DNA of 36,483 nucleotides, taken from IMG/VR virus record IMGVR_UViG_3300023223_000712, positions 1-36,483 of that record, one strand, 5' to 3'. Each line of letters opens with the position of its first letter. Within the stretch, counting starts at the first letter, position 1. This DNA comes from a virus. The notes beneath the pieces are model-generated. The model did not search any database and was not told where the DNA came from. It was given only the letters and a program-made list of their open reading frames with translations. Below, piece after piece: positions 5,982 to 36,388 of the stretch. The position numbers and the translations under genes were made by a program.

Positions 5982-6682
5982 GTGATAATTATGGAAAAAA
6001 AATCACCCAAAACAACTGAAACTGTTGAACAAATCAAGACAAATGTATCAAAATCATCTGAAAAAATCAAACAAGACAAATTAAAGAATGAAGCACTAGA
6101 AAAATTAACAACAGAAATTAATGAATACACAAAAAACCCTGATATTGGTGTTGATTATGACAAATTACACTGCTACATTCACAATCACAGATGGCATATC
6201 AAATCAAATGCACATATCAGCTCAATTAGAAATTCAATAAGAGATTGGTACATAGAATTATTGGAATTGCCATCACAAATTAAAACATCATTAGACGTGT
6301 ACAAAATTCAACCACAATTTGATGCACTATCAAAAAAAATACTTGAAACTGGACTATCAGATTTTGATTATGACAAAGAAGCTGATGATCCTGAGCTTGG
6401 ACCTGTTGCATTAAAACTATTGGCACAGGAATTAGCAGCTTTTTTAGTGGTAAGGGGTGGCAAGGTCGCAGCTACGCACTCAAAGATGCTGCAGAAACAG
6501 GCTCTATTAGAGCATTTGAACGATTAAAATTTTACCCTGACTTATCTAAAAAATTTGATGTTACAATCTACTTTAGGAATGGTTATGGCAATCTCTTTGA
6601 ATGTCACAAGTTTGTTTTTAACAAAAAAGCAACAAAAGCAGACATGATAGAATACAACATCATATTTGGTTCAATGAAATGA
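5982..6682 (+). CDS. Tail assembly chaperone, short form plus -1 frameshifted long form (G/GT type)
   Basis: The zero frame runs 5982-6527 (181 aa). A classic heptamer T TTT TTA occurs at 6440-6446, in register for -1 slippage (zero-frame codons TTT TTA at 6441-6446). The -1 frame is closed by TGA at 6392-6394 upstream, has no usable start codon, and is open from 6395 to TGA at 6680-6682. The slip would give 155 zero-frame residues plus 78 new ones (SGKGWQG... to ...IFGSMK), about 233 aa. This matches lambda gpG/gpGT: the short form coats the tape measure and the extended form recruits tube subunits. Position between the tail tube and gp10-like and tape measure genes supports this. The long form ends overlapping the next start codon (ATGA). 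The frameshift itself is inferred. Confidence 0.85.
6440..6446 (+). promoter_or_regulatory. Slippery heptamer TTTTTTA for -1 frameshifting
   Basis: T TTT TTA is in the correct zero-frame register inside the tail chaperone gene. Shifted reading gives AGT GGT AAG and so on. A G-rich stretch follows immediately (6447-6460), which could help pausing. I did not resolve a downstream pseudoknot. Confidence 0.8.
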
Positions 6683-7134
6683 GCAGCCCAATCAAAGGCA
6701 AAGTTAACTTCACTGAAATTCAAAAATTTTTTGATGATTTTGAACAAAGAATTGCAACACTGAAAAAAAATGTATTAATCAAAGCTCAAGAATTATTATT
6801 AATCACCATCAAAAGACTAGCACCACGAAACACAGGTACTTATGCTGACTCTTGGATAAATGGCCCAATTACTGACAACAGCATGACCATTGAAACACCA
6901 CTAGGCCAACTATACATGATTTTAGAATTTACTGGTGCTGCAGCACAAAAACGCAGAAGGAAACCACCACAAAAACCCTATGTATTCAAAGATGCATCAG
7001 GCAATACAGTTTTCACATACAAAATTGATTGGCCTGGCTTTGAGAAAATACCACATGCAAGAATTGCTTTGGAGCTAACCATGGAAGAGCTAGGTGATAT
7101 TCTTAAAGAAGAATTTGCTAAAATTTTTAAATAA
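6679..7134 (+). CDS. HK97 gp10-like tail/neck protein (151 aa)
   Basis: The central motif LAPRNTGTYADSW resembles the AP-x-DTG-x-L signature of HK97 gp10-like proteins, which act at the head-tail joint or in tail completion. The C-terminal motif PHARIALE followed by an amphipathic helix also fits that family. Usual length is 110-160 aa. The gene overlaps the end of the frameshifted chaperone by 4 bp. Its position after rather than before the tail tube gene is unusual. A basic patch (KRRRKPP) lies in the middle. Confidence 0.65.
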   Translation: MSSPIKGKVNFTEIQKFFDDFEQRIATLKKNVLIKAQELLLITIKRLAPRNTGTYADSWINGPITDNSMTIETPLGQLYMILEFTGAAAQKRRRKPPQKPYVFKDASGNTVFTYKIDWPGFEKIPHARIALELTMEELGDILKEEFAKIFK

Positions 7135-7177
7135 AAAGGTGGAGGAATTTTTCAAATTTTTTACAATTCAAATTATT

Positions 7178-7618
7178 CTATGGTTTTAAACAATCACGTA
7201 TCACCAAATCATTGTACACTGAATTGATCTCTTTTTCTAAGAGTTTGTTATCTCGAATCATTCTATCAATTCTGTCTTGATCTGGTGTGTTGCTGTTTCT
7301 ATCATCATCTATCATGTTTTGCCTTCGCTCATGCAATGTTATTGTTGCTTCTAGATTCACTTTTCTTTTCTGACATGAATCTTTTGTATATGGCTCAAAA
7401 CCATCATTCCAAGATACAGTACCAATTTCAGGTACAACATTTGCCCAAGCATCTTGCCAATCTATAACCTGGTGTTTTTGTATTTCCTGTGTAACAGGTA
7501 TTGCATCAATTGTTGCAACCTGTTCTGTACCTACATCTTGAACTGCAATAGCTGCTACCATCACACCTACTATGATTATTGCAATAATTGCAATAGGTAT
7601 TGTTTTGCTATTTGACAT
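7178..7618 (-). CDS. Membrane-anchored accessory protein on the opposite strand (146 aa)
   Basis: The start at 7618 (MSNSKTIPIAII) is chosen over an in-frame ATG six codons upstream because a TATA-like CTTAAA (7646-7641) lies 25 nt before it. One hydrophobic segment (about residues 6-26) anchors the protein. The rest is soluble, acidic then highly charged, with two Cys near the middle and end. It interrupts the tail operon, faces the opposite way and has its own operator-flanked promoter, so it looks like a moron: an independently expressed gene, perhaps active when late genes are silent, for example in host surface alteration or superinfection exclusion. Function is unknown. Confidence 0.75.
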   Translation of the reverse strand: MSNSKTIPIAIIAIIIVGVMVAAIAVQDVGTEQVATIDAIPVTQEIQKHQVIDWQDAWANVVPEIGTVSWNDGFEPYTKDSCQKRKVNLEATITLHERRQNMIDDDRNSNTPDQDRIDRMIRDNKLLEKEINSVYNDLVIRDCLKP

Positions 7619-7664
7619 GTTATGTCTAAAACACATCTTGTTTAAGTGTGTTATGATGATAACA
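7618..7664 (-). promoter_or_regulatory. Promoter with two operators flanking a TATA box (minus-strand gene)
   Basis: Read on the minus strand: operator TGTTATCATCATAACA (7664-7649), TATA-like CTTAAA (7646-7641), then a degenerate operator TGTTTTAGACATAACA (7633-7618) that overlaps the start codon. The two operator centres are 31 bp apart, three helical turns. The same op-TATA-op layout occurs before the gene at 20710, and a single stronger copy lies at 15511-15530. This implies a common DNA-binding regulator. Confidence 0.7.
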
Positions 7665-7692
7665 TGAATGAATTAATAATACAAACACAATT

Positions 7693-7704
7693 TTTATTTA
7701 AATC
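7693..7704 (+). promoter_or_regulatory. TATA box for the tape measure gene
   Basis: TTTATTTAAATC is centred about 25 nt before the TTG at 7723. It supports TTG as a leaderless start and restarts late transcription after the inserted minus-strand gene. Confidence 0.6.
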
Positions 7705-7722
7705 GACTTACACCATATTGTA

Positions 7723-9843
7723 TTGTCTGCTGAACAACTCAAAGGAGTAATTGAAGTTGAATTTGATGAAGGTGATGTTGTAAAAGCTGCAAAAAGTACA
7801 TCTGGTGCAATTGGTACAATGGGCAAATCCATTGAAAAAGATTTAGATGATATTGGCAAATCTGCTGATGGTGCTGCATCTGATTTACAAGGAATGGGTG
7901 ACAAAGGATCACGCTCATTTGATAAATTAGAAGCTGGTGCAGATAGCGCAACAGCATCAGTTAAAGATACAGCACTTGAAGTTGTAGCACTAGGTGAAAC
8001 ATTCAGTGGTGTTGCAGAATCAGCATTTGGATTTGCAGAAAAATTACTATCAGTAGAGCGTGCAATGGTAGGTATTGAACAATCAGCACTTGGTTTGTCA
8101 AGACAGATTGAAGATTTTGAAACTGCAATGAAAAATGGTGAATTATCAACACGTGATCAACAACGTGCAGTACAAGATATTCAAGCAGTTTACAGAGATT
8201 TTGAACTGCAAGGCAGAGAACTTGAAGGACAGCAACAAGCACTTAATGGTGAATTTGTTTCTTTTGGTTTACAAATGTTAACAACAATCACAGTTAGTGG
8301 TGTGATGCTAAAACAATTAGGTTTAACAAATGTTGCACTAGTCAAACAAAAGATTGCATTATTGGCAAACAGCAGAGTTTTAAAATTTTTGAAATTTGAT
8401 CTGGTAGCTGCTAGGGCTGCATTTGTTACAACTACTGGTGCAATGGGTATTATGACATCATCAACCAGAGTGGCCACCTTCTCTGTTGCTGGTTTGCGTG
8501 CAGGTATTCATGCAACCACGCTGGCATTAGGTCCAATAGGCATTGCAATTATTGCAATTACTGCAGCCTTTACCATCTGGGAAACAAATGCATTTGGTGT
8601 ACAAGAAAAGATAGCGCAATTATGGGAGACATTAAAGCAATTCATACCAACTTTAGTTTTATTAGAAGCTACAACCAAAGCACTATTTCCACCAGAAGAA
8701 ATTAAAAAAGTTGGCCAATATGGCATTGAACTTGGTGGCCTAGATGATGTAGCAAAAAATGTTGATGGCCAATTTGCAACACTAGATGAAACCACTGGTA
8801 CTTACACTACAACCATTGGTACTATGACAACAGCAAATCGTGAAGCAATTGAAGTTATGGGCACTGGTGGCATTGGCACTATGGATGAATCATTAACTGG
8901 TGCATTTAATTCAGTTGGTGAAGCAATCAATGAAACCACCCAGGCACTTGTGATGCATCAAGGTTTAATTTTTAGTGCTACTGGTAACATGATTGATCTA
9001 TCAAAACGTGTGGGTAACACAAATGATGTTTATAGAATATGGCAAGAAACACTGAAAGGTGTAAACAAAGAACTTGGTGAAAATAGTGTTTGGTTGGACA
9101 AAGTAAAAAAAAAACAAGATGAATTAAACAACTCTGAAAAACAGAGTGGCATCATTACAACACCATCAGATTTTACAACTACACCAGATGGTGTAGTGCG
9201 CAGACAGCCAACCAGACGTGGACTAGTAACACAAGAATTTTTTAACTCATTGCCACCAGAATTAAAATCAGGTTTCAGGCCCACACGTGGCCCAGGTCCA
9301 GCACCAGGTACTAGGGAACGTTTAGCAAGAGCTAGATCATTTAGAAATTCAGTAGCAGGTATTATTGCTCAAGCATTAACAGGTCGTGGCCCTTTAGACA
9401 GAACCCAATCAGGCATTGCACAAAGAAATCAAGCTACAATTACCTCAATTGTTACACCAATCAGAACAGCCCGAGCTATGGGTTTATCATTTTATCAAGC
9501 AGCATCACAAACAGTTGGTGAATTTAACAAATCTGCACAATCAGCTAGAGCAGCTATAGCAGCAGAGCAGCAAAGAATTTTTAATGAACGTGTTAGCTCC
9601 TTTGGTATTTTATCAAGGGAATTAAGAGTAAATGCAAGAGATTTTGTAACAAGATCAGAGCAAGAATCAATTGCAAATTTTGCAGAACTAGTAGATTTGG
9701 ACACTACACAAATATCAAACCTACAAGCTAGACAATTACTAGCAGCAGGCAGCAGTGAACAAAGCACCAGGAACAGACGAAACGCAACAGCACACAAATT
9801 GGCTTTTTTAAATAGACAGGAAATGATACAAAACTTACCATAA
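7723..9843 (+). CDS. Tail tape measure protein (706 aa, TTG start)
   Basis: This is the longest gene of the tail block, placed after the frameshifted chaperone module. Helical and coiled-coil N-terminal regions rich in Ala, Gly, Asp and Lys (residues about 1-110) are followed by a hydrophobic region around 230-290 (ALGPIGIAIIAITAAF), then a helical C-terminus rich in Arg, Gln and Ala. These are hallmarks of tape measure proteins, which set tail length and pass into the host membrane. By the usual rule of about 0.15 nm per residue the tail would be near 100 nm. The start is TTG TCT GCT, set by the TATA distance. The stop overlaps the next start (TAATG). Confidence 0.85.
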   Translation: MSAEQLKGVIEVEFDEGDVVKAAKSTSGAIGTMGKSIEKDLDDIGKSADGAASDLQGMGDKGSRSFDKLEAGADSATASVKDTALEVVALGETFSGVAESAFGFAEKLLSVERAMVGIEQSALGLSRQIEDFETAMKNGELSTRDQQRAVQDIQAVYRDFELQGRELEGQQQALNGEFVSFGLQMLTTITVSGVMLKQLGLTNVALVKQKIALLANSRVLKFLKFDLVAARAAFVTTTGAMGIMTSSTRVATFSVAGLRAGIHATTLALGPIGIAIIAITAAFTIWETNAFGVQEKIAQLWETLKQFIPTLVLLEATTKALFPPEEIKKVGQYGIELGGLDDVAKNVDGQFATLDETTGTYTTTIGTMTTANREAIEVMGTGGIGTMDESLTGAFNSVGEAINETTQALVMHQGLIFSATGNMIDLSKRVGNTNDVYRIWQETLKGVNKELGENSVWLDKVKKKQDELNNSEKQSGIITTPSDFTTTPDGVVRRQPTRRGLVTQEFFNSLPPELKSGFRPTRGPGPAPGTRERLARARSFRNSVAGIIAQALTGRGPLDRTQSGIAQRNQATITSIVTPIRTARAMGLSFYQAASQTVGEFNKSAQSARAAIAAEQQRIFNERVSSFGILSRELRVNARDFVTRSEQESIANFAELVDLDTTQISNLQARQLLAAGSSEQSTRNRRNATAHKLAFLNRQEMIQNLP

Positions 9844-11528
9844 TGAGTTATCCATTAAACCACAATGCAAGAGGATTGGCAGCAATTCTAGTAGTTTTTG
9901 ATTTGACTGGTACAGAAATGTACAGATATGAAATGCCATCTGTAGCTGTAACACCTGTGCAAAATTTCCCATTCACAGGTGTTGATCTCAACATGGGAAT
10001 CAATGAAAATTCTGGTTTAATTTCAATTTTCATAGATGATAGAGATAAAAATTTTATTGAAAATATTGGTGGTGATATCAGATCAAAATTCAAGCCTGGT
10101 TGGACCATACAAATATTTTGTGGCAAAGAGCCTGCATCAGTCACCCTGTGGGCATTAGCTGTATTGCAAGACATTGATCTAAACTACGATACCAACAATT
10201 TTTTTCAAACTTTACATTGCAATGGCTATGGCATCAGACTACAACACAGATATTCAATAATGAAGCGCTCACAAAAAAGACTAGCTGATGCAATCACACC
10301 TGATCCAGCAGATGTATCAACATATGTTTCACAATTATTCAAAGACGTTTTAATTGATACTGATCATCTAGCAACACAAGGTTTGGGCCAACTAGATATC
10401 ACAACAGGAAATGTACAAGAAATTGCAATCCCGATTGCAGAATTTGATAAAAATATTGTATCATTTGGTACTATTCTCACAGAGCTTGCAGTAATGGGTT
10501 TTGCTTGGTATGGAGTTGATCAAAACAAGGTGGCATTTCTATACAAAAAAGGTGAAGTGTCCAGTGGTTTTCTTGTATCAAATGACACATCACCTGAACC
10601 AAATGATACTTCACTTTGGGCCACAGATAAAAGAATGTTTTTCAGAAACATGCCAAACATAATCCATGATCAATCATCTGACTCAGCCTTTAGTATCTTG
10701 CAAGCTGTAGGCGCTCAAAGGTTGGTGGTGGACCATGATAAACAAGTACACACCACTAGTGACATTGACACAAACAATGCTATCTTTGCCTTCAAATTTG
10801 TACCAATAGTTGACAATGTTGCACAGATTATTGTATTTCTTAGCAGCTCAGGTGCAATTGGTTCTGATTTAATTGTATCAATTGTTGGTGAATCAGGTGG
10901 CAACCCAAATTTATTAAACATAAGAAAATCAGTAACAATTAACAGCGCCCAGCTTCAAAAAGAAATTGATGTAACAGGCAAATTCTTTAAAATTAGATTT
11001 GATAAAATACCAGTGACAAAAGGTGAAACACTATTTGTTGTATTCAGTAAAACAACTAACGTAGGTGTGAACGCATTGAATCTGTCATATGAAGCAGGTA
11101 CAGGCAATTATTTTAGATCAACTGATGGTGGTGCATCATGGACTACACCAGCAGGTGAACCAGCTTTTGTAACTTACAGCTCAAAAAACACAAGAATCAT
11201 TGCAGAAAGTGCAACAACTACAGGCAAACTACTACCAAAAGAAGCAATAATTAACCTGCCTGACACGCCAACTGAGCAAGCTGTGTTTCAGGTTCTTGAA
11301 TCACTGCTACAAACTTTGACCAAAGTTATCAGAAATTATGATCCAATCACTGTATCAACTCCAAATGTACCACCAGAATTAGGCAAATCAATAAGGCTAA
11401 TCAACACTAATCTAAGTATGGACACAGAAGTTGATTTGATTGGCTACAGTTTATCTATCAATGCACATGATAATTCAAATCGTGGTGCAACTGAAATGCA
11501 GCTAATGTTTCAAGGAATCTACATCTAA
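9843..11528 (+). CDS. Tail hub / baseplate protein (561 aa)
   Basis: It lies immediately downstream of the tape measure gene, as tail hub (gp27- or Gp37-like) proteins do. The N-terminal half is beta-rich with a segment where an aromatic-rich strand alternates with helices. Residues about 300-460 look like an inserted beta-sandwich with a WTTP strand and several Thr/Gly turns, possibly a carbohydrate-binding or Ig-like insertion. The end returns to a hub-like strand pattern. It starts in TAATG overlap with the tape measure and shares the TAATG junction with the next gene at 11528, indicating translational coupling. Confidence 0.65.
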   Translation: MSYPLNHNARGLAAILVVFDLTGTEMYRYEMPSVAVTPVQNFPFTGVDLNMGINENSGLISIFIDDRDKNFIENIGGDIRSKFKPGWTIQIFCGKEPASVTLWALAVLQDIDLNYDTNNFFQTLHCNGYGIRLQHRYSIMKRSQKRLADAITPDPADVSTYVSQLFKDVLIDTDHLATQGLGQLDITTGNVQEIAIPIAEFDKNIVSFGTILTELAVMGFAWYGVDQNKVAFLYKKGEVSSGFLVSNDTSPEPNDTSLWATDKRMFFRNMPNIIHDQSSDSAFSILQAVGAQRLVVDHDKQVHTTSDIDTNNAIFAFKFVPIVDNVAQIIVFLSSSGAIGSDLIVSIVGESGGNPNLLNIRKSVTINSAQLQKEIDVTGKFFKIRFDKIPVTKGETLFVVFSKTTNVGVNALNLSYEAGTGNYFRSTDGGASWTTPAGEPAFVTYSSKNTRIIAESATTTGKLLPKEAIINLPDTPTEQAVFQVLESLLQTLTKVIRNYDPITVSTPNVPPELGKSIRLINTNLSMDTEVDLIGYSLSINAHDNSNRGATEMQLMFQGIYI

Positions 11529-12957: not shown

Positions 12958-13587
12958 ATGGACACCATCAATGATAAAATCAATAGAATTACAAATGATC
13001 CAGGTTTATCAAGTGGCATTTGGAATGTTGCATTATGGAATGAATCAGATTATCCCGAATTAGCTATTAACAATCAACATCTTTTAGGTAAGATAGATAA
13101 AATTTTTGCAGAAATTGCAGCAACAGACAGAAACACAGTCATTGAACCTTTACAGCTAGAAGTACAAGCTTTTGGCAAATCCTTCTTTGCTCAAAGAGAT
13201 ATCTGTAACATTTTGCCAAACATCGGTTTAACTGAAATGGCAAAACGCTCAGTTGGTACATCTACTACAACTAATGTAGCTCATGCAATTGGAACAGACA
13301 ACACAACACCTGCATTAACTGACACACTACTTGGTGCAGAAATTTTTAGAAAAGCAATAGGCACAAAAACTGTAGTTGGTCAGACAGAACGATACGGATC
13401 TGTTTTCACTGGTTCTGAAATTGCAAGCCCACCAAAAAATATTGTTGAAGCTGGCATATTCACTGTGTTAACTGCAAACACTGCAATCATCATTGCACAT
13501 GTCACCTTTACAACATTCGTTTTAGATGTTGGCAAATTATTCACCATACAATCAAACATTTCACACAAAAATGGTGTAGCAATATAA
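12958..13587 (+). CDS. Tail fibre / virion structural protein (209 aa)
   Basis: The ATG at 12958 (MDTINDKIN) follows the TATA distance. The open frame extends upstream to 12766 but overlaps the opposite promoter region there. The region around residues 100-160 has the pattern AIGTDNTTPALTDTLLGAE, an AxGTGxTxPaxxDTxLGxE-like segment frequent in phage tail fibre proteins, followed by paired beta strands. There are no catalytic motifs. It precedes the tail collar gene by 1 bp, forming a receptor-binding fibre module downstream of the baseplate. Confidence 0.65.
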   Translation: MDTINDKINRITNDPGLSSGIWNVALWNESDYPELAINNQHLLGKIDKIFAEIAATDRNTVIEPLQLEVQAFGKSFFAQRDICNILPNIGLTEMAKRSVGTSTTTNVAHAIGTDNTTPALTDTLLGAEIFRKAIGTKTVVGQTERYGSVFTGSEIASPPKNIVEAGIFTVLTANTAIIIAHVTFTTFVLDVGKLFTIQSNISHKNGVAI

Positions 13588-13588
13588 C

Positions 13589-14245
13589 ATGGCAGCACCA
13601 GTAGATGCACCATGGGCCAAAACCAATGCAACTGATGCAGATTTAAACAAAACAACATATGGTCAAGGTCCATTATTCCCTACTGTTTGGCCTGTTCAAA
13701 GATTATTTCTAAGAACTGATCAAAATAAAATTTATACAAACATTGGTACACTAAATTCACCAGTATTTACTTTGATTACAGGTACAGCAGCAGGTGCTAT
13801 TATTGATTTTGCAGGCCCAATTGCACAACACCCACTAGGCTATCTAAGATGCAATGGCAATGCAGTATCACGTGGTACATTTAGTGTATTGTTTGCAGTA
13901 ATTGGTACAACATATGGTGTTGGTGATGGTTCAACAACTTTCAATGTGCCAAATTTAGAAACTGATAACAAATTCACTAGTGCTGCAGATGCAGATGGTG
14001 ATCTAAATAATAACGATGGTGAAAATACAACCACATTAACTGTTGCACAATTGCCATCACACAACCACCCATATGTTGACACTGTACTTATTGGTGTAGC
14101 TGGCAACCATGTTACCAGTGGTAACACCACCGTATCATCATTTAGCAACTCAGCAACTAACAAAACAACTAGCAATACAGGCAGTGGTACATCACACAAC
14201 AACAGGCCAAGCAATCTTAAAGTATTCAAATTAATCAAAACTTGA
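13589..14245 (+). CDS. Tail collar domain fibre protein (218 aa)
   Basis: Residues about 70-125 match the phage tail collar domain (PF07484, also in microcystin-dependent proteins). It reads GAIIDFAGPIA, then GYLRCNGNAVSR, then LFAVIGTTYGVGDGSTTFNVPNL. The C-terminal section has TLTVAQLPSHNHP, a conserved part of this family, followed by a Thr/Ser/Asn-rich stretch and the ending HNNRPSNLKVFKLIK, a typical terminal motif. These proteins form short trimeric fibres for host recognition. The start lies 1 bp after the preceding stop and the next gene begins 1 bp downstream. Confidence 0.9.
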   Translation: MAAPVDAPWAKTNATDADLNKTTYGQGPLFPTVWPVQRLFLRTDQNKIYTNIGTLNSPVFTLITGTAAGAIIDFAGPIAQHPLGYLRCNGNAVSRGTFSVLFAVIGTTYGVGDGSTTFNVPNLETDNKFTSAADADGDLNNNDGENTTTLTVAQLPSHNHPYVDTVLIGVAGNHVTSGNTTVSSFSNSATNKTTSNTGSGTSHNNRPSNLKVFKLIKT

Positions 14246-14246
14246 T

Positions 14247-14891
14247 ATGTTGAACAATTCACCTGAAATACTAGTTGTAGATGATTTTCTATCAACCAAC
14301 CAATTATTTCAATGCCAACAGGAAATCACAGCTAACAAATCAAAACGTGAAGCAGAAAAAAATGGCAAACATGCATCATATTCTAGATATTACCCAGATG
14401 TAAACACAATGATCCCAAACACAATTAATGATACTTTATTCACTGACAAAATCCACAATTTAATCAAAGATTTTCACGATGGATTTTGGAAATTATTTAA
14501 TGAACAACTAGCACTAGGTTTTGAGGTACAAGTAACAGCATACAAAAAGAAACTAAAAAACAAATATGATTGGCATGTTGATCATAGAATTGAGAATGAT
14601 AGATATCCTGGCATCAGAGTTTTGAATTATATTTTGTACATGTCTGATGTTGCAGATGGTGGTGAGCTGGAAATAGCAGATTATTATGGCAAACATGATC
14701 CAAATCGCAAAAAATACAACATCATCAAAACCATCAAGCCAAAAACAAACAGACTAGCACTAATGCCTTCTTGGATGGTCCACAGAGTAAAGCCAATAAA
14801 ATCAGATGATACCAGGATCACAATCAATGGCCATGTTTTTCTACAAAGTATTCAAATGATAAATAATAAATTCAACATTGTTGTACAATAA
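14247..14891 (+). CDS. 2-oxoglutarate/Fe(II) oxygenase, prolyl-4-hydroxylase-like (214 aa)
   Basis: The double-stranded beta-helix signature is complete: iron ligands H110 and D112 in WHVDHR, H179 in SWMVHRV, and R190 eleven residues later in RITINGHVF as the likely 2-oxoglutarate carboxylate binder. A GGELEIADYY strand lies between them, as in prolyl 4-hydroxylases and related phage oxygenases. Family enzymes hydroxylate side chains using O2 and 2-oxoglutarate. The next gene, 5 bp downstream, encodes a proline-rich repeat protein, a plausible substrate. Setting it within the fibre module suggests modification of virion proteins. Substrate specificity is inferred. It could instead act on nucleobases or a host protein. 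Confidence 0.85.
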   Translation: MLNNSPEILVVDDFLSTNQLFQCQQEITANKSKREAEKNGKHASYSRYYPDVNTMIPNTINDTLFTDKIHNLIKDFHDGFWKLFNEQLALGFEVQVTAYKKKLKNKYDWHVDHRIENDRYPGIRVLNYILYMSDVADGGELEIADYYGKHDPNRKKYNIIKTIKPKTNRLALMPSWMVHRVKPIKSDDTRITINGHVFLQSIQMINNKFNIVVQ

Positions 14892-14896
14892 TTAAC

Positions 14897-15391
14897 ATGT
14901 CACGACCAGAAGAAGAAACACCAGAAGAAGAAACACCAGGCCCAGAACCTACACCAGAACCTACACCAGAACCAATACCAGAACCTACACCAGAACCAAT
15001 ACCAGAACCAGAAGAAACACCAACACCAACACGTGATCCCAGAGAACCACCATTTGAATTAACTTCACCAGAATCAACATCACAATTACCACCAATGACA
15101 CACCCTAAAGCAATTGAAAAAGCTATAGTAGAACTAATGAAATTTCAAGATACTTTTGTCAGACATATGGCTGATGAACTTTTGGCACTGTACAAATCAA
15201 CACCAATCAACCCACACAAAAGACTTGTTGATATTCCTTTTTCACAAATGACAACAGATGAATCAAAAGAATTTTTACAATTTCAGACTTATATCTATTC
15301 AACACTTAACGTGATCTTCAATTCATATGCTGAAAAAATCAAAACAACAGACATTGAAACACATGAAAAATTAAAAACTGCTGAAAAATAA
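14897..15391 (+). CDS. Proline-rich repeat protein, possible hydroxylase substrate (164 aa)
   Basis: Residues about 3-50 are low-complexity repeats of the type EEETP and PEPTPEP/PEPIPEP. This is an acidic polyproline-type extended arm. Residues about 75-164 are helical and charged without Cys or membrane segments. Position after the oxygenase and at the end of the fibre operon suggests a virion or tail-associated protein whose arm could be hydroxylated or glycosylated. No family is recognised. The final gene of the structural operon is followed by a structured intergenic region. Confidence 0.75.
   Translation: MSRPEEETPEEETPGPEPTPEPTPEPIPEPTPEPIPEPEETPTPTRDPREPPFELTSPESTSQLPPMTHPKAIEKAIVELMKFQDTFVRHMADELLALYKSTPINPHKRLVDIPFSQMTTDESKEFLQFQTYIYSTLNVIFNSYAEKIKTTDIETHEKLKTAEK
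14907..15022 (+). repeat. Tandem short repeats coding for Pro-Glu-rich arm
   Basis: The coding sequence repeats CCAGAAGAAGAAACA twice (14907-14936), then runs of CCAGAACCTACA and CCAGAACCAATA with 12- and 18-bp periods to about 15010. Near-identical units suggest expansion by slippage, so length could vary between strains. Confidence 0.8.
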
Positions 15392-15395
15392 CTAA

Positions 15396-15405
15396 TTTTT
15401 ATATC
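15396..15405 (+). promoter_or_regulatory. TATA-like box for a candidate non-coding RNA
   Basis: TTTTTATATC is centred about 26 nt before base 15427, the start of a strongly foldable segment with no reading frame. Confidence 0.45.
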
Positions 15406-15426
15406 ATTACTTCTTTGTATCATCAA

Positions 15427-15494
15427 GTGGTAATAGTCTGTGCAGGTTTGTTGTTAGTGTACCTGCCTACCAATGCAATTGTGGCTATTACCAC
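15427..15494 (+). ncRNA. Candidate three-way-junction RNA
   Basis: The outer stem is a perfect 10-bp pair, GTGGTAATAG (15427-15436) with CTATTACCAC (15485-15494). Inside are a perfect 6-bp hairpin, GCAGGT (15442-15447) with ACCTGC (15461-15466), and a 4-bp hairpin, CAAT-GCA-ATTG (15471-15481). The 68-nt unit is GC-richer than its surroundings, lies in a gap between operons, follows a TATA-like box at the right distance and lacks a T-run, so it is unlikely to be a simple terminator. It is not a tRNA and I recognise no known RNA family. Confidence 0.5.
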
Positions 15495-15510
15495 CCACTC
15501 ATAATATCAC

Positions 15511-15530
15511 TGTGTTATACTGATAACACA
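15511..15530. promoter_or_regulatory. Operator, best copy of the shared palindrome
   Basis: Perfect 8-bp arms TGTGTTAT and ATAACACA are separated by ACTG. The right arm abuts and partly overlaps the TATA-like ACATAATAAC (15528-15537), which lies about 25 nt before the ATG at 15558. A bound protein would block TBP/TFB. Related sites occur at 7618-7664 and 20661-20708. Confidence 0.75.
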
Positions 15531-15537
15531 TAATAAC
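15528..15537 (+). promoter_or_regulatory. TATA-like box of the accessory operon starting at 15558
   Basis: ACATAATAAC is centred about 25 nt before the ATG at 15558 and overlaps the operator's right arm by three bases. Confidence 0.5.
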
Positions 15538-15557
15538 CCCAAAGTGGTACAGATATC

Positions 15558-15719
15558 ATGAGTAAAACACTAACACAAAAAAGCCATAGTACATCAAATG
15601 CAATAGATTTTTCAAAAATTGCAGTTGAAAGCACACAAGGCTTGATCAAAGACGATTTATTATTAGAATTTGATCAACTTGAAAATACAATCAATGAGTC
15701 ATGGGATTTGATATCTTAA
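15558..15719 (+). CDS. Small helical protein, first gene of an operator-controlled operon (53 aa)
   Basis: The frame begins MSKTLTQKSHSTS and ends NESWDLIS, with an acidic amphipathic C-terminal helix. It is the first gene after the best operator copy and has a leaderless-type start. Its stop overlaps the next start (TAATG). No family is recognised. The position under its own operator would suit a small regulator, though no clear helix-turn-helix is visible. Confidence 0.6.
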   Translation: MSKTLTQKSHSTSNAIDFSKIAVESTQGLIKDDLLLEFDQLENTINESWDLIS

Positions 15720-15862
15720 TGTCTGACTGTACAAGCTGCCACCTAAGATTAGAAACATGCCAAGGCCATGTTGCACCATTTTGTGCAAATGAAGAATGTA
15801 AAAACTTTGACAAAAAAGCAATGTCAAAAGCAATTGCATACATCAAGAGGTTAAATAGATAA
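15719..15862 (+). CDS. Small zinc-binding protein (47 aa)
   Basis: The start ATG overlaps the TAA of the preceding gene and its own TAA overlaps the next ATG, so it is a coupled operon member. Cys residues occur as CTSCHLRLETC near the N-terminus and CANEEC about 10 residues on, with a His nearby, enough for one zinc site. A basic helix follows. Function is unknown; it is probably nucleic-acid- or protein-binding. Confidence 0.65.
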   Translation: MSDCTSCHLRLETCQGHVAPFCANEECKNFDKKAMSKAIAYIKRLNR

Positions 15863-16221
15863 TGTCTACAATGAAGTGTAGATGTGGATCAGATGATAAA
15901 TTAATTATCGTCAAAGGCATCATCACCAGAAAAGCAGACAACAAGCCACACGTTTGTTTGGGCAATCAAGATACAATAGCACCAGAACCACCAACACCTG
16001 CAGAAGCAGCAGCAGAAATTGGCATCATACCAGCACCAGGTGAAACATACACCATAGAAAAAATCAGAGCTGCATACAAGCACATCAGGTTGATTGAAAA
16101 AACACTACTTGATGAAGATGTAGAAGTCTATGATGGCAAGCTACAAAACAACCTGCCAAAACTAGGTATGATAATGAAGATGGTGGATAACATTCTCAAG
16201 GAAAAGCCACATGATCTTTGA
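15862..16221 (+). CDS. Zinc-binding hypothetical protein (119 aa)
   Basis: The N-terminus has CRCGSDDKLIIVKG and a later HVC, giving a candidate Cys3His zinc site in residues 6-32. A Pro/Ala-rich linker (about 40-55) leads to a helical C-terminal domain. It is translationally coupled to both neighbours: start overlaps the previous stop, and the next gene starts 11 bp before this one ends. No family is recognised. Confidence 0.7.
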   Translation: MSTMKCRCGSDDKLIIVKGIITRKADNKPHVCLGNQDTIAPEPPTPAEAAAEIGIIPAPGETYTIEKIRAAYKHIRLIEKTLLDEDVEVYDGKLQNNLPKLGMIMKMVDNILKEKPHDL

Positions 16222-16435
16222 TGAAAAACGTGTAGTTATCACCACTACAATCAACTCAGTTGAAGATGTAAAAAAACTAATCACTGTAGCAGTTGATCGT
16301 GTCACCTACAAATACAACATGTCAAATGGCAGCATACATTTTACAACTTTGATGCACATGTATTTTGAAGAAATAGAAAAAGTTAGATTGCTTGTATTAG
16401 GTGCAATGCCAAAATCTAAAGGACCATTGAATTAA
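16211..16435 (+). CDS. Small hypothetical protein (74 aa)
   Basis: Mixed strand and helix pattern without Cys: an N-terminal strand (KRVVITTTI), a helix with VEDVKKLITVAV, a strand, and a helix with His and Met. It may form a small alpha-beta fold. It overlaps the preceding gene by 11 bp and is 2 bp ahead of the next. Function is unknown. Confidence 0.65.
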   Translation: MIFDEKRVVITTTINSVEDVKKLITVAVDRVTYKYNMSNGSIHFTTLMHMYFEEIEKVRLLVLGAMPKSKGPLN

Positions 16436-16437
16436 TA

Positions 16438-16569
16438 ATGAAATCCATACAAATCATCAAAACATATTGTATCTGTGACTGTGGATGTATCAACACACCT
16501 GACAATTGCAAAGATTGGATGTGTAGCTCTTGCAGTGGCCAAAACCATTTGGGTGATCGTACACAATGA
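16438..16569 (+). CDS. Cys-rich zinc-finger microprotein (43 aa)
   Basis: It begins MKSIQIIKTYCICDCGC and has a second pair CSSC about 15 residues later, seven Cys in 43 residues with one His. The ATG at 16438 follows the preceding stop by 2 bp, and its TGA overlaps the methyltransferase ATG (ATGA) at 16566, a strong sign of a real coupled gene. It may bind zinc and partner with the methyltransferase, but this is inference. Confidence 0.65.
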   Translation: MKSIQIIKTYCICDCGCINTPDNCKDWMCSSCSGQNHLGDRTQ

Positions 16570-17126
16570 ATGGTACAGTAAAATCAGACTCATCACAGAA
16601 CCTATGGCGCACACCAAAAGGTGACAAATTACTTGGTCGTGGACCATACACAATAAACAAGCTGATAAAGGAGTTTAATCTAATATTAGATCCCTGCTGC
16701 AGTGGTCCAATTGACTCACTGATCCACATAGAAGATGGTGGTAAATTTTTCACAAAAGAAGATGATGGCCTAGCTCAAGAATGGAAATACAACAGTATCT
16801 TCAACCCACCATTTGCTAAACTAACTTACAATGATGATGGCACAGTCAGAACAAAGTATGATTTAAAATTAAAAATGGATGTTCCAATGTACAAATCAGC
16901 AATTGAGGATTGGATCATCAAAGCAGTATCACAAGTTGTACAACATGGCATAACAGCTATCGGTATTCTACCAGTCTATACATCACCTAAATGGTTTCAC
17001 CAATACATCAATGGCATAGTACCAGTTGAATTTATCAATGGGCGTGTACATTACACAAACCCAGATGGCAAAACAGGATCACCAAACTTTGATACTATGC
17101 TAGTTTTTTGGATCCCTAGAAAGTAA
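16566..17126 (+). CDS. DNA N6-adenine methyltransferase, phage Dam type (186 aa)
   Basis: The layout matches the phage N-6-adenine methyltransferase family (Dam, PF05869): an early W-x-TP segment, LDPCCSG (D42-C45) as the AdoMet-side motif, FFTKEDDGL, the catalytic NPPF at residues 80-83, then W..KA, LPVYTSPKWFH and a final DTMLVFW strand. Length is typical. It probably methylates viral DNA to evade host restriction or to mark packaging or replication sites. Target sequence is unknown. It is the last gene of the 15558 operon and starts on the ATGA overlap. Confidence 0.88.
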   Translation: MNGTVKSDSSQNLWRTPKGDKLLGRGPYTINKLIKEFNLILDPCCSGPIDSLIHIEDGGKFFTKEDDGLAQEWKYNSIFNPPFAKLTYNDDGTVRTKYDLKLKMDVPMYKSAIEDWIIKAVSQVVQHGITAIGILPVYTSPKWFHQYINGIVPVEFINGRVHYTNPDGKTGSPNFDTMLVFWIPRK

Positions 17127-20709: not shown

Positions 20710-20847
20710 ATGGCAAAACCAAACACTCAATGTCTAAACGCTGAATGTAACAATCAATTTGTTTCATCAAAAGATCCAGCAGCAGTAACACAAAGAGCAA
20801 AGCCACAATGTACTTTATGCAACCAAAGGAATTGTAAAACAATATGA
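20710..20847 (+). CDS. Zinc-finger microprotein under operator control (45 aa)
   Basis: It begins MAKPNTQCLNAECNNQF and ends with CTLCNQRNCKTI, so two Cys pairs (C8/C13 and C34/C37, with another at 42) are spaced for one zinc finger. The ATG follows operator B directly. The TGA overlaps the ATG of the secreted Fn3 protein at 20844, coupling the two. It is a candidate small regulator, possibly acting on its own promoter, but this is inference. Confidence 0.65.
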   Translation: MAKPNTQCLNAECNNQFVSSKDPAAVTQRAKPQCTLCNQRNCKTI

Positions 20848-22697
20848 ATAAACTGCTCTTACTAATTCCAATAATTTTTACGTTATTACTAATCCCAACA
20901 GCTATACATCAAGATGCATCAGCTACACATCAAGGTGGCCCACCACCAAACTCAGCAGATGAAGTGACTTTTGAAGTCAACCAAATTGGCAAGTCACTAA
21001 AAATTGATTGGGTATATGACAATGCAAATATTCCTTATGGAAACACAATGGAGAAATTTAATGTAATTCTAGATCCACAAGGCCATTGGAGAGATATAAT
21101 TTACATCAATGCTGATCCTAATTGGAGATCATACACAGTTGACAACCTGACTGTAGGAACTGAATACATCATAAAGGTACATCCAGTTTCAGTAAATGAC
21201 AAAGGCAATTATTATAGTGGTTGGTCAACACCACAAAATGTTCGTGTGTTGACACCTGCACATATATTGGATTCAGTTATTTGGGATTCTGATAAAAACG
21301 TCATAGTAGACTGGTCATACTTTGAACCAATAACAGATTCAGAACTTGTAAACATGATATTCTGGTCCGAAATTGGCAATCCATCAAACACAGATAATCT
21401 ACTTCTTACAGGTGAACACACAACAGCAACAATACCAGACATTGACACCACAAAGAATTGGAATTTTAAACTATCATACTCTGCACCATCAGTAGGTGAA
21501 TCTGATTGGTCAAACTCTATAACATTGGCAAAGTTACCAACACCTGATCCAGTAATGCCAAAAACATTTACACTTGAAAATACCAAAAACTCTGTAAAAA
21601 TAAACATTAGTGAAGCAAAATTTTTATCACTACACACTGACAGACCAGAGTACTACACCTTCAAAGTATATCATTCAAACACTGAAAAAATAGATGCTAA
21701 CCTGGTTGATTATAGTTTTGCTGTTTCAACAACTTTACCTACAATTTGGGATTTCAACAACAACAAATATCATACTGAAAGTTATCCATCATACAATACA
21801 CGTGATGTTTTTCAACCACTCTATATGCAATGGTTAAATCTACAATGTGGCACAAATTACACAATTGATGCTGGCCAATATCTTCAAGGGAGTTGGACAC
21901 CTGCAATTGTTGACACCTTCACCTTCACAGCTTGTGGTGCAGCAGAACCAACAGCACAACCAACAACACAACTAGAAGTAATGAAAAAGAAAAAACACAG
22001 CAGCACCAATGATCAGCCACCATGGTTAGGCATTGACAAAGATGGTAAAGTCAAAGTTGATGCTGGTGTAATAATTAATGGTTCACCAATAGATGCTGCA
22101 AATTTCCATACTACAACCATTATACCAAACACCACACTAGGCGCACTAAACCACATTCAATTAACATACCACGATGTTAAAGGCCCATCAAACATCAAAT
22201 TAACTCAACTATGCAGTGTTGATGAGATTGGTACACCACTTGGTGCTGCTCAATGGTGTATTGAGGTTTACATCAACTACTTTGGCAATGATATCACAAA
22301 CCCAACCATACAAGAAATCAAAGTAATTGATCTAGACAACAACATCACCTTTGATACTGCTGCACTAGAACTAAGAGAATGTACAGCAAATTCATCAGCT
22401 AAAGCATGTCTAACAACTCACATTACTTACAGTTACAATACAGTACCAAATAGCCCTGTCCTTGCTAGTAGTGCAGTAAACTACCAGCAAGCAACCTGGC
22501 ACAATTATTTCAATGATGGTTTGAATGTCATTGATCCAAATCCAACTGCACCTGTTGTTGTTACTCCATACAAATATGAGTGCAAAGATCCAGCACTTGA
22601 TACTATCAATGTACCAACTAGAATGAATTGTAACTTTAAAGACTTGATAGCATCAGAAGCACAAAGAGCCTTGGAGTCATTGAATCAACTTGAATAA
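20844..22697 (+). CDS. Secreted multi-domain Fn3-like surface protein (617 aa)
   Basis: A signal peptide (residues 1-28: hydrophobic LLLLIPIIFTLLLIPTAI, then an ASATHQGG site) is followed by two or three Fn3-like beta-sandwiches (about 35-127, 130-225, 228-370; motifs LKIDWVYDN, YTVDNLTVGTEYIIKVHPVS, WNFKLSYS). A basic linker (MKKKKHSS) leads to a domain starting PPWLGIDKDGKVKVD (about 391), a phrase like those in thaumarchaeal S-layer-associated proteins. Several N-x-S/T sites could be glycosylated. It may remodel the host surface, block superinfection or aid exit. Co-expression with the operator-controlled 45-aa gene implies regulated, perhaps early, synthesis. Confidence 0.85.
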   Translation: MNKLLLLIPIIFTLLLIPTAIHQDASATHQGGPPPNSADEVTFEVNQIGKSLKIDWVYDNANIPYGNTMEKFNVILDPQGHWRDIIYINADPNWRSYTVDNLTVGTEYIIKVHPVSVNDKGNYYSGWSTPQNVRVLTPAHILDSVIWDSDKNVIVDWSYFEPITDSELVNMIFWSEIGNPSNTDNLLLTGEHTTATIPDIDTTKNWNFKLSYSAPSVGESDWSNSITLAKLPTPDPVMPKTFTLENTKNSVKINISEAKFLSLHTDRPEYYTFKVYHSNTEKIDANLVDYSFAVSTTLPTIWDFNNNKYHTESYPSYNTRDVFQPLYMQWLNLQCGTNYTIDAGQYLQGSWTPAIVDTFTFTACGAAEPTAQPTTQLEVMKKKKHSSTNDQPPWLGIDKDGKVKVDAGVIINGSPIDAANFHTTTIIPNTTLGALNHIQLTYHDVKGPSNIKLTQLCSVDEIGTPLGAAQWCIEVYINYFGNDITNPTIQEIKVIDLDNNITFDTAALELRECTANSSAKACLTTHITYSYNTVPNSPVLASSAVNYQQATWHNYFNDGLNVIDPNPTAPVVVTPYKYECKDPALDTINVPTRMNCNFKDLIASEAQRALESLNQLE

Positions 22698-23585: not shown

Positions 23586-24164
23586 ATGGATCTAACACAA
23601 GATAACTACAACTACCAAAACAGTACATACACATCTGGTTTTATCTTTGATTTTTGGAGCTGTGGATCTGCTCAAAAAGATGAATACAAAATCAAATTTC
23701 CTGGTGCATACCCTGCAGGTTTCTTAAAACGCTGGCGTGCAGCATTTGAATCTACTTTCTTAGAATCAAATAATACCATCTTACATGTTTGTGCAGGTCG
23801 TGTACCATTCAGTGAAGGACTCACACAAGATATCAAGCCTGATTACTCACCTGATTACAAATGCAATGCAGAAGAAATACACATCACATACCCAGAACTA
23901 TCAAACAAATTCCAGTGGACCATAGCAGATCCACCATACAATCAAGCTGCATCAAAAAAATATTATGACATGCCACTACTAAACAAACACAAGATGCTAA
24001 AGAGCATGGCAGCAGTAACAAAACCAGGTGGCTACATAGGAATACTTGATCAAAATGCCCTAATTGGCAAACCTGCAAACCTAAAGAAAATAGCACACAT
24101 TGCAGTGACATCAATACCAAACACTGATGCTAGACTATTCACTGTATATAGAAAATTATCATAG
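23586..24164 (+). CDS. DNA methyltransferase with DPPY motif (192 aa)
   Basis: The catalytic motif IADPPYN lies at about residues 113-119 and marks an amino-methyltransferase (N6-adenine or N4-cytosine). The AdoMet-binding side is probably ILHVCAGR (about 65-72) with a following acidic strand. After the catalytic loop come KPGGYIGILDQN and a final RLFTVYRK strand. It differs from the Dam-type enzyme at 16566, so the virus encodes two methyltransferases. No target domain is obvious and no restriction partner is seen, which suggests self-protection. Confidence 0.8.
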   Translation: MDLTQDNYNYQNSTYTSGFIFDFWSCGSAQKDEYKIKFPGAYPAGFLKRWRAAFESTFLESNNTILHVCAGRVPFSEGLTQDIKPDYSPDYKCNAEEIHITYPELSNKFQWTIADPPYNQAASKKYYDMPLLNKHKMLKSMAAVTKPGGYIGILDQNALIGKPANLKKIAHIAVTSIPNTDARLFTVYRKLS

Positions 24165-33097: not shown

Positions 33098-36000
33098 TTG
33101 TCAACTGAAACAGTACCATACTTACCACAATTTATTTTTCAACAGCCAAACTTTAGGCACTATTTCCCACAAGGTGAACCAGGTGGCTCAGGTGGTATAT
33201 CAGCAAAAATACTAGCAGCAATAATGCCTGCAGCACTAGATACTACCTATGAAAATTTAAGATTTTTCCAATTAATGAGAAATCATTTAGTTACACCATC
33301 ATCAAACATCAGGCCATTCTATAACATCAAACTAGGAGCTAATAGACTCTTAAGCTTAGCTGGTGATGATATCAAAATTGGTAATATTGCAGCATCACCA
33401 AGTACTATACCACAGCATTTACTAAAAATTGACAAATCACAAGGGTGGATTCGTGGTTTTGTTAATCCATCATCATTCAAAGACCTTGATGCTTTTCAAA
33501 TCAACTATGGTAAAACAGTAGCACCTGGTACATCAACCCCTGAAACAGTATGGGATACTGCTCACTTTAACAATGTATTCACCTTTGAATCTGATACACC
33601 AACTACATTTGACGATAAAACATCAAACAACAACAATGGTTCATCTGCCTCACCTGGAAAAATTGTTACAGGCTTATATGGATTAAACGCATATTCTACA
33701 AACGCCAATACAAATGCACAAATAAACATACCAAACAGTGCATCATCTGATTTATCAGGCATTTTCACACAGTTAATTTTACTTGAAATCTCATCTTCAC
33801 ACGTTGGCAATTTCTCAGTAATGTCAAAAAAGTTTGCCATAGATGGAAACGAGCCAGGAATTATGATAAATTACAATTCTGCAAACGAAGCTGCATTAGA
33901 ACTAAGAATCAATAACGGCTCAATGTCAACTGATGAAGTAATTAAACTACCAAACAGTCGAGATCATCTTAGACTAAATCAATTCCATGTTATCGCATTG
34001 TCAATTAATAATACAACTAGAGCATTTCAGCTAAGCATTGATGGAGATCCTACATTGACAATTTCAGGAACATACACTACTACAGGTTCTATACTTACAA
34101 GTAATATTACAGAATTAGGCAAAAATATAGGAGCAGGTATCTTTGATGCAATTTATCAAACATACATCAATGCTAAAGCCTTTTGGACACTAGACGAAAT
34201 TAAAACATTTACAGATAACATGCTAGACTATCCTAATACAATTCACCAAACAAACATAGACCTACCAGCTTTAGCAGCACCTAACTTTGCATTAGGTGTT
34301 GTCACACAAAATTGGCCAAAACGTGACTGGCTTGATAGAATTGATTTAGAAGTAGCACCAGGCATGATGGGCCAATCAGAAAACAATTTTGTAATACTAG
34401 TTGAAAAGACAATACCTAGCTTAATTGGCAAAGTCAAACCAAATGGTGAGGATATCAGATTTACAGATATTGATGGTACTGATCTAGATTATGATATTGA
34501 GGCATTTGATAACCTTACAGGCAAAGTTGTCATTTGGGTTTTTCATAAATCTGCTTTTGTTGGCATGAGATTTTTCCTATACCATAACAACCCAAGCGCA
34601 GTTGATGCACAAAGCTCACATCTAGTATGGAATGCATACGATGCAACATTCCATTTGAGTCAACCATTTGTATTAAATTCACCATCGATGCTTGACTCTA
34701 CACGAAATGAAAACAATGGCACACCAACAGGTACAGGTATTTCACAAGTTGCAGCAAAAATTGACAAGGGAATAGCTAATGATGGTGGTGATAATCTTAG
34801 CAGAATTACAGCTACCCTACCAATTGATGAATCATTTTATGTTTCTGTATGGGCCAAATGTAACACTACAACTTATGCAAAAAATACAGCTCTAATTTCA
34901 TCAAGAGGTAATAACGGTATGGGATTATTCCCAAGCCCAACAGTAGGTGCAGGCAAAGGAATTAGAGTTTTTATAATGAATAATTCAGCAGTTGTTACAG
35001 AAATTACAGCGATTATACCTAGTGATATTACAGTATGGCACAAATATGGCCTTGCATGGAACGCATCAACAGGTATAGCTATTTCACTTTTGGATGGTGA
35101 AATAGTTGGCTCACTACCTAAAACAATCGTAAGAGATGCACATTCAAACATTACATCAACTATGGCTTATGATATTTCACCAGGTGATCCTAATCGTGAA
35201 TATGATGGTGAAATTGATGAAATAGAAATTTGTAGAGTATTCCCAACTGTTGAATTTTTAAGATCAGAATACAAAACACAAAATGATCCAGCAGGCTTTT
35301 TAATTTTAGGTACACCTGAATCACTATTAACTGCAAATACAGCCATAGATGTTACTCCACATCTTATTAACCCTGCCTGGAAAAAACGTATGAATTTAAC
35401 AACTCAATCAGGCCAATTCCAAGGTGTAGGAAAATTAACAGGATATCAAATATATGTAGAAATTCAAGATGATTTACTAAAAACTGAAACTAATCTAGAT
35501 GGTAGTGATTTACTATTCACTGATAAAAAAGGTGATCTAATTCCATTTGAAATTAAAGAATTTAACAGAACAGCAGGTACTATCAAGGTCTATTTCAAAC
35601 AAACCATATCCTCACTAGATAATACAATTAATCACCTGTTCTTTAGTAATCCTGTTGCAGTAGATGCACAAAATAAAAATGGTGTATGGTCAGATTATGA
35701 TGCAGCATATCTATTTGCAGAACCTTCACCCTTAGCTATTGGTGGCACATTACTAGACAGTACAGCAAGCCCTCTAAATGGTATTGTTCAAGATGATCCT
35801 TTAGTTGATAGAGCAGGCCAAACAGGAAACGCTAAAAATATGGGAACAGCAACAGCAGCAGATGTGGCATTCCTATCCTCTACTAAATTAGCTGGTTCAA
35901 CTTTCACATCTTTTGAAATTATGGCTGAAAGGATAGTGAGTTCAGGTGGAATATTCCCAATGCTTTTTAATTTAGGTGCAACAGTAAATACAAATGTCAG

Positions 36001-36388
36001 CATATTTCTTGCAACTGGCACAGTCCCATCTGTTAATTATACACTAAGTGATCTAACATCACACAGTGTAGCATCACCCACTGCAATTAATGACGGTAAT
36101 TTCCATCTAATTCACGTTATCTTTGATAATACTGGAATGTATCTATACGTTGATAAAATCCTCAAAGCATCCAAAGCTCACATTAACAAATCACTAAAAA
36201 CAACAGCTACTCCTGCACAAATTGGATCATCGGGTATAGCAGGTTTACCTTGGGGGCCAAACGAATCTATCAACTTTGTCAAGAAAACCAACAGAGCATT
36301 ATCTAAAATTTACAGAGATACATCATATCAAAATTACTTTAATCCTTCTACCTTCACATTGAAAAGCGCAGTGATAGACAATGAATAG
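33098..36388 (+). CDS. Giant modular adhesin with repeated DUF2341-LamG units (1096 aa, TTG start)
   Basis: The start is TTG TCA ACT, 3 bp after the preceding stop. The N-terminal 150 residues are unique and may anchor to the capsid. Then come a LamG-like jelly roll (about 150-380), a DUF2341-like domain (about 405-515: DWLDRIDLEV...FTDIDGTDLDYDIEAFD...YHNNPSAVDAQ), LamG (515-740), a second DUF2341-like domain (757-865: WKKRMNLTT...LLFTDKKGDLIPFEIKEFN...FFSNPVAVDAQ) and a third LamG (865-1096). The two DUF2341-LamG pairs are an internal duplication. LamG domains bind glycans, so this is probably a head fibre or receptor-binding protein. The gene crosses the circular junction; its end is repeated at bases 2-49. 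Confidence 0.9.
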   Translation: MSTETVPYLPQFIFQQPNFRHYFPQGEPGGSGGISAKILAAIMPAALDTTYENLRFFQLMRNHLVTPSSNIRPFYNIKLGANRLLSLAGDDIKIGNIAASPSTIPQHLLKIDKSQGWIRGFVNPSSFKDLDAFQINYGKTVAPGTSTPETVWDTAHFNNVFTFESDTPTTFDDKTSNNNNGSSASPGKIVTGLYGLNAYSTNANTNAQINIPNSASSDLSGIFTQLILLEISSSHVGNFSVMSKKFAIDGNEPGIMINYNSANEAALELRINNGSMSTDEVIKLPNSRDHLRLNQFHVIALSINNTTRAFQLSIDGDPTLTISGTYTTTGSILTSNITELGKNIGAGIFDAIYQTYINAKAFWTLDEIKTFTDNMLDYPNTIHQTNIDLPALAAPNFALGVVTQNWPKRDWLDRIDLEVAPGMMGQSENNFVILVEKTIPSLIGKVKPNGEDIRFTDIDGTDLDYDIEAFDNLTGKVVIWVFHKSAFVGMRFFLYHNNPSAVDAQSSHLVWNAYDATFHLSQPFVLNSPSMLDSTRNENNGTPTGTGISQVAAKIDKGIANDGGDNLSRITATLPIDESFYVSVWAKCNTTTYAKNTALISSRGNNGMGLFPSPTVGAGKGIRVFIMNNSAVVTEITAIIPSDITVWHKYGLAWNASTGIAISLLDGEIVGSLPKTIVRDAHSNITSTMAYDISPGDPNREYDGEIDEIEICRVFPTVEFLRSEYKTQNDPAGFLILGTPESLLTANTAIDVTPHLINPAWKKRMNLTTQSGQFQGVGKLTGYQIYVEIQDDLLKTETNLDGSDLLFTDKKGDLIPFEIKEFNRTAGTIKVYFKQTISSLDNTINHLFFSNPVAVDAQNKNGVWSDYDAAYLFAEPSPLAIGGTLLDSTASPLNGIVQDDPLVDRAGQTGNAKNMGTATAADVAFLSSTKLAGSTFTSFEIMAERIVSSGGIFPMLFNLGATVNTNVSIFLATGTVPSVNYTLSDLTSHSVASPTAINDGNFHLIHVIFDNTGMYLYVDKILKASKAHINKSLKTTATPAQIGSSGIAGLPWGPNESINFVKKTNRALSKIYRDTSYQNYFNPSTFTLKSAVIDNE

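Follow-up and report, generated by a model that had tools for sequence, protein, structure and literature searches.

The window analyzed here is the whole viral record IMGVR_UViG_3300023223_000712 (36,483 bases). One part of it codes for tail fiber proteins, a putative oxygenase, and a proline-rich protein, all on the plus strand. The features, with their best family matches, are listed below, where L003 is the sole close relative of the virus that was found.

12958 to 13587, plus strand: conserved tail gene just 5' of the fiber gene (phrog_5417, 5.9e-8; 78% identity in L003)
13589 to 14245, plus strand: collar-domain tail fiber (PF07484, 1.7e-17; phrog_9116 tail protein, 7.8e-24)
14247 to 14891, plus strand: 2OG-Fe(II) oxygenase, PKHD/PHD-like, 214 aa (PF13640, 3.4e-13; phrog_81, 1.5e-9)
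14897 to 15391, plus strand: PEP-repeat protein, 164 aa (Pro/Glu arm in residues 1 to 64 plus a predicted helical hairpin)
15392 to 15861, plus strand: 470-bp stretch with no ORF of at least 60 aa, the end of the cassette described below

The coordinates and reading frames of the oxygenase and PEP genes, and the 5-bp gap between them (14892 to 14896), were exact on recheck. The collar fiber gene and the oxygenase gene are spaced more tightly still, at 1 bp. Because of this spacing and the 470-bp stretch that follows the PEP gene, the initial annotation's description of the pair as the end of a tail fiber operon fits.

The oxygenase matches PF13640 at 50.8 bits, against a curated cutoff of 27, and also matches PF13661, PF13759, and the phage family phrog_81. 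The complete HxD...H...R motif previously read from the sequence is there: the metal ligands H110, D112, and H179 are invariant in an alignment of 51 sequences (the window protein and 50 viral relatives), while R190, presumed to bind 2-oxoglutarate, is kept in at least 90% of them. The GGE and WHxD core is retained as well, and the AlphaFold2 model (mean pLDDT, 76) has the double-stranded beta-helix fold. With its catalytic residues and predicted fold kept, the enzyme is apparently intact.

The nearest solved fold to this model is human PHD2 (EGLN1; Foldseek E 2.7e-9, TM ~0.6), a rank helped by the many PHD2 entries in the PDB, and the two proteins share ~20% identity. Family profile searches matched PKHD/PiuC enzymes first and then prolyl 3- and 4-hydroxylases. 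The best profile-to-PDB sequence matches are the PKHD hydroxylases PiuC and YbiX (PDB 9ghl, 9qn1; 3dkq), with which the window oxygenase has a GGEL and HRV...R core in common; nevertheless, it falls far below the equivalog cutoff of NCBIfam PRK05467 (PiuC/YbiX), at 22.9 versus 180 bits. The family profile also reached the prolyl 4-hydroxylase in PDB 5c5t (6e-14), which we take to be the PBCV-1 enzyme. Given these matches and PHD2 as the nearest fold, "prolyl-hydroxylase-like" is a fair description of the predicted fold, and it is a statement about fold, as the substrate is not readable from sequence. The chlorovirus PBCV-1 offers a precedent for a virus-encoded prolyl hydroxylase; its prolyl 4-hydroxylase acts on proline-containing peptides, its role is unknown, and it has no demonstrated virion substrate (PMC7019647).

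The window oxygenase is a further member of a known viral enzyme family. The phrog_81/PF13640 oxygenases of cyanophages and pelagiphages belong to the same Pfam families, contain the same HxD...H...R core, have a length of ~190 to 214 aa, and are its best tblastn matches (27 to 34% identity). Unlike many of the cyanophage copies, it lies directly behind a same-strand fiber gene and belongs to what is probably a virus of an archaeal ammonia oxidizer. An origin from the host was considered and rejected; only 6 of 200 Nitrosopumilaceae genomes have a PF13640 match above the cutoff, and all of these matches are distant. A different, distant PF13640 oxygenase, on contig L248 from Nitrosopumilaceae genome G076, lies beside genes that by eye are glycosyltransferase-like and Erf-like, and L248 is apparently another viral contig of an ammonia oxidizer.

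The proline-repeat arm reported for the neighboring protein is likewise real, with 21 prolines in residues 1 to 64 and six PEP units. This protein is the most proline-rich product of the 42 window ORFs (18 prolines in 40 aa; the next best has 7), and the chance that the most proline-rich gene would be one of the oxygenase's two neighbors is ~5%. Codon use and GC3 of the PEP gene are broadly as in other window genes. A single-sequence model, of low confidence, predicts that the arm is disordered and is followed by a helical hairpin (residues 70 to 101 and 120 to 162), and a structure search with this model gave no significant match. Homologs of the protein were found neither in phages, IMG/VR, and BFVD structures nor in Nitrosopumilaceae genomes. 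A Pfam scan of 20 window proteins turned up no glycosyltransferase.

An aerobic ammonia oxidizer had been proposed as the host, and relatives of the window terminase lend this support. The terminase profile has matches in 20 of the 200 Nitrosopumilaceae genomes that made up the search (best, 3.7e-121), a count in which binning errors are possible and beside which matches to other taxa may exist; the best phage terminases share only ~30% identity with it. One terminase-positive Nitrosopumilaceae contig (L256) has five further matches to window genes, in conserved order, including the gene at the portal position and the major capsid protein (MCP) gene. Some of the terminase matches are on long chromosomal contigs; for instance, that on L259 lies amid histidine-biosynthesis-like genes (function judged by eye). 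A provirus search of genome contigs by a peptide pattern of the terminase had returned nothing, and the profile search of Nitrosopumilaceae genomes later succeeded. A host within the ammonia-oxidizing Nitrosopumilaceae is therefore well supported by these sequence matches, though not proved.

Several other window genes deserve mention. The gene at 20844 to 22697 codes for a 617-aa, secreted-looking protein with an fn3 domain, the C-terminal part of which (residues ~380 to 570) recurs in 37 of the 200 Nitrosopumilaceae genomes; the protein may be host derived or surface acting. A virion-like protein of 1096 aa (33098 to 36388) contains laminin-G/concanavalin-like domains and DUF2341 and is possibly glycan binding. 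The genes at 16566 to 17126 and 23586 to 24164 include a Dam-family N6-adenine methyltransferase (PF05869); the other member of the pair is methyltransferase-like by eye and matched no Pfam family.

Comparison with L003, which is syntenic with the window and has a terminase of 86% identity, suggests how the fiber locus evolves. A search of IMG/VR for further relatives via the MCP, terminase, and tail gene returned one contig only. The window fiber matches PF07484 at 63.5 bits (curated cutoff, 24) and is a typical collar fiber with an LPSHNH motif, but its N-terminal 60 residues were matched only within the window's archaeal virus group. Residues 1 to 60 are 60% identical to the L003 fiber, the match is confined to them, and the L003 tip is glycine rich and unrelated to the window tip. 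Judged from these alignments, residues 1 to 60 are a conserved anchor, and the remainder is a putative exchangeable, receptor-binding tip. On its left side, the exchangeable region is bounded by the 78%-identical tail gene at 12958 to 13587, and synteny resumes at ~16211, where L003 ORF 2526 to 2741 resembles 16211 to 16435 (by eye). An oxygenase of the window type is absent from the whole L003 record, and the PEP gene was not found in the L003 loci read from the record. Since L003 lacks all three together, the fiber tip, the oxygenase, and the PEP gene appear, in this single comparison, to behave as one exchangeable fiber-end cassette. Elsewhere, L003 carries a gene (8775 to 9872) for a 365-aa protein with tandem QSPEYKAKQKAY-type repeats and zinc-finger-like ends.

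The initial annotation, which proposed a survey of co-occurrence across viruses, also put forward the oxygenase and the PEP-repeat gene as a specific pair. As a general pattern, this pairing did not hold. When viral contigs (IMG/VR) were scanned for PEPTPEP, 80 loci were recovered, and 78 proteins had the motif in frame. An oxygenase of the window type is present at just one of these 78 loci (L151), where it is not adjacent but 3.3 kb away beside the terminase, and PF13640 is missing from 12 of the 15 whole records in the set. At the motif level, each gene is frequent without the other, an outcome that the initial annotation had named as counting against its proposal, and viral proteins commonly use PEP repeats as linkers. 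Most neighbors of the viral oxygenases are not proline rich; the recurrent neighbor is a collar or other fiber protein. Proline-rich genes seemed overrepresented next to viral oxygenases (2.0% versus 0.4%, for stretches of at least 25% proline), but a few redundant loci drive the difference, and we make no claim from it. From the earlier reading, the PHD-like oxygenase, the fiber operon, and the ammonia-oxidizing host are supported; the specific pairing of the two genes is not.

Other loci contain proline repeats of different kinds. At six of them (L028, L045, L048, L052, L068, and L070), a PKHD oxygenase directly follows a tail-like protein that carries long NPxxPGNP or NIIPGP/TGTYNIVPGN repeats, and these are better candidates for a proline-repeat/hydroxylase pair than the window. 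Long collagen-like GPQGPKG proteins at L035 and L057 have two or three 2OG oxygenases a few genes away.

Collar fibers gave a different picture. A PKHD-type oxygenase lies within 4 kb of the collar fiber at 23 of 80 collar loci, compared with 1 of 78 PEPTPEP loci (Fisher 6e-7, ignoring relatedness). One pelagiphage-type group accounts for 21 of the 23, the other two being L271 and L299; with the window counted, there are only about four independent collar/oxygenase lineages. When 45 collar records, selected by prior presence or absence of an oxygenase in the collar flank, were searched whole, 22 of 22 oxygenases were by the fiber and none were in the other 0.98 Mb. The pelagiphage-type group is exemplified by the isolate HTVC027P, in which, as in the window, a collar fiber (gp70) and a PF13640-type oxygenase (gp73) lie within 1 kb of each other. 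HTVC027P differs in that its oxygenase is on the opposite strand, small genes intervene, there is no PEP-repeat gene, and the host is a bacterium; its authors linked gp73 to iron demand (PMC12753301). In the pelagiphage-type genomes (among L266 to L345, and in L346 [HTVC027P], 6001 to 8032), one to four distinct 2OG oxygenases stand right behind one to three tandem collar fibers, mostly on the opposite strand and among other accessory genes. Noncollar fibers with Pro/Gly repeats (L028, L068, and L070) and a glycine-rich fiber (L074) also directly precede an oxygenase. Many cyanophage homologs, in contrast, are near RNR, tRNAs, or uvsW, away from fibers, and a scan of upstream neighbors with PHROGs revealed no enrichment of tail genes 5' of viral oxygenases generally. 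The recurrent association of this oxygenase type thus appears to be with fiber loci in several viruses and not with proline repeats.

What the enzyme does can be read in more than one way. We lean, tentatively and short of calling it probable, toward a viral PKHD/phrog_81-type accessory hydroxylase, in a head-tailed virus of Nitrosopumilaceae, that moves along with the exchangeable fiber-operon end and acts on a protein of that module. We favor this reading because the enzyme is PHD2-like and intact, the genes are spaced by 1 and 5 bp, they are jointly absent from L003, and the enzyme type recurs beside fibers. Late in infection, the oxygenase would be produced together with the adsorption proteins; using Fe(II), 2-oxoglutarate, and O2, it would hydroxylate at least one residue in the fiber tip, the PEP-arm protein, or both, which might tune stability or receptor binding. 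Proline is a possible but not specifically indicated modified residue, and we infer the steps that lead from gene location to protein target. The narrow lineage base of the collar loci, the mostly opposite-strand position of the pelagiphage oxygenases, and the way the whole-searched collar records were selected weaken the fiber-module reading, as do the many cyanophage homologs away from fibers and the lack of upstream fiber enrichment. Nearly as likely is a host-directed moron that sits in a recombination hotspot at the fiber end and modifies a host translation factor or surface protein or shifts 2-oxoglutarate/nitrogen metabolism. The class assigned to the phrog_81 family is moron/auxiliary metabolic gene, cyanophages commonly carry its members away from fibers, and modulation of host nitrogen/2OG metabolism has been proposed for the cyanophage enzymes, without direct tests (PMC4164917; PMC9602691). 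Fiber swapping at the window locus itself suits such a hotspot, as do the pelagiphage collar islands, in which the opposite strand carries several oxygenases together with additional accessory genes. However, under a general metabolic role one would not predict the lack of oxygenases away from the fiber in the collar records checked, and the window gene is on the fiber's strand with tight spacing on both sides.

A special case of the fiber-module reading, in which the enzyme is a prolyl hydroxylase devoted to the PEPTPEP arm and would yield a hydroxyproline-bearing virion arm, seems to us improbable. The PEP protein is the virus's only strongly proline-rich protein, it adjoins an oxygenase whose nearest fold is PHD2, and both genes are missing from L003. 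Nevertheless, the enzyme is hardly ever encoded alongside PEPTPEP proteins, such repeats are common linkers, homologous oxygenases adjoin fibers with few prolines, and the oxygenase family includes members for which proline is not a known substrate. Moreover, the PEP protein is only putatively in the virion, and attempts to detect hydroxyproline in PBCV-1 virion proteins failed (PMC7019647). The PEP protein could instead be a small assembly or regulatory protein, such as a fiber chaperone, that is functionally unrelated to the oxygenase and a mere neighbor in the cassette. We regard this as somewhat unlikely; it can hold together with either the fiber-module or the host-directed reading of the enzyme. 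The predicted disordered arm and two helices, the chaperone gene beside the collar fiber in phage Alexa, and the absence of PEP protein relatives near other oxygenases speak for it, but the model is of low confidence, and no homolog has a known function.

The position of the oxygenase, in an archaeal virus and within a fiber cassette, makes a useful lead but does not amount to a novel type of system. Marine phages widely carry 2OG-Fe(II) oxygenases, and published guesses about the targets point to host nitrogen or iron metabolism. That the archaeal virus uses the cassette enzyme to hydroxylate its own PEP arm, with hydroxyproline as the product, or its fiber tip, and that the pelagiphage fiber-locus enzymes do likewise, is a long shot. 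HTVC027P is a culturable phage, so the idea of hydroxylation at fiber loci is testable now. If virion arms or fiber tips were hydroxylated, the assembly of infectious particles would depend on O2, iron, and 2-oxoglutarate. More broadly, if fiber-locus oxygenases hydroxylate adsorption proteins, a large gene family would gain a testable function, and host recognition would be tied to oxygen and iron.
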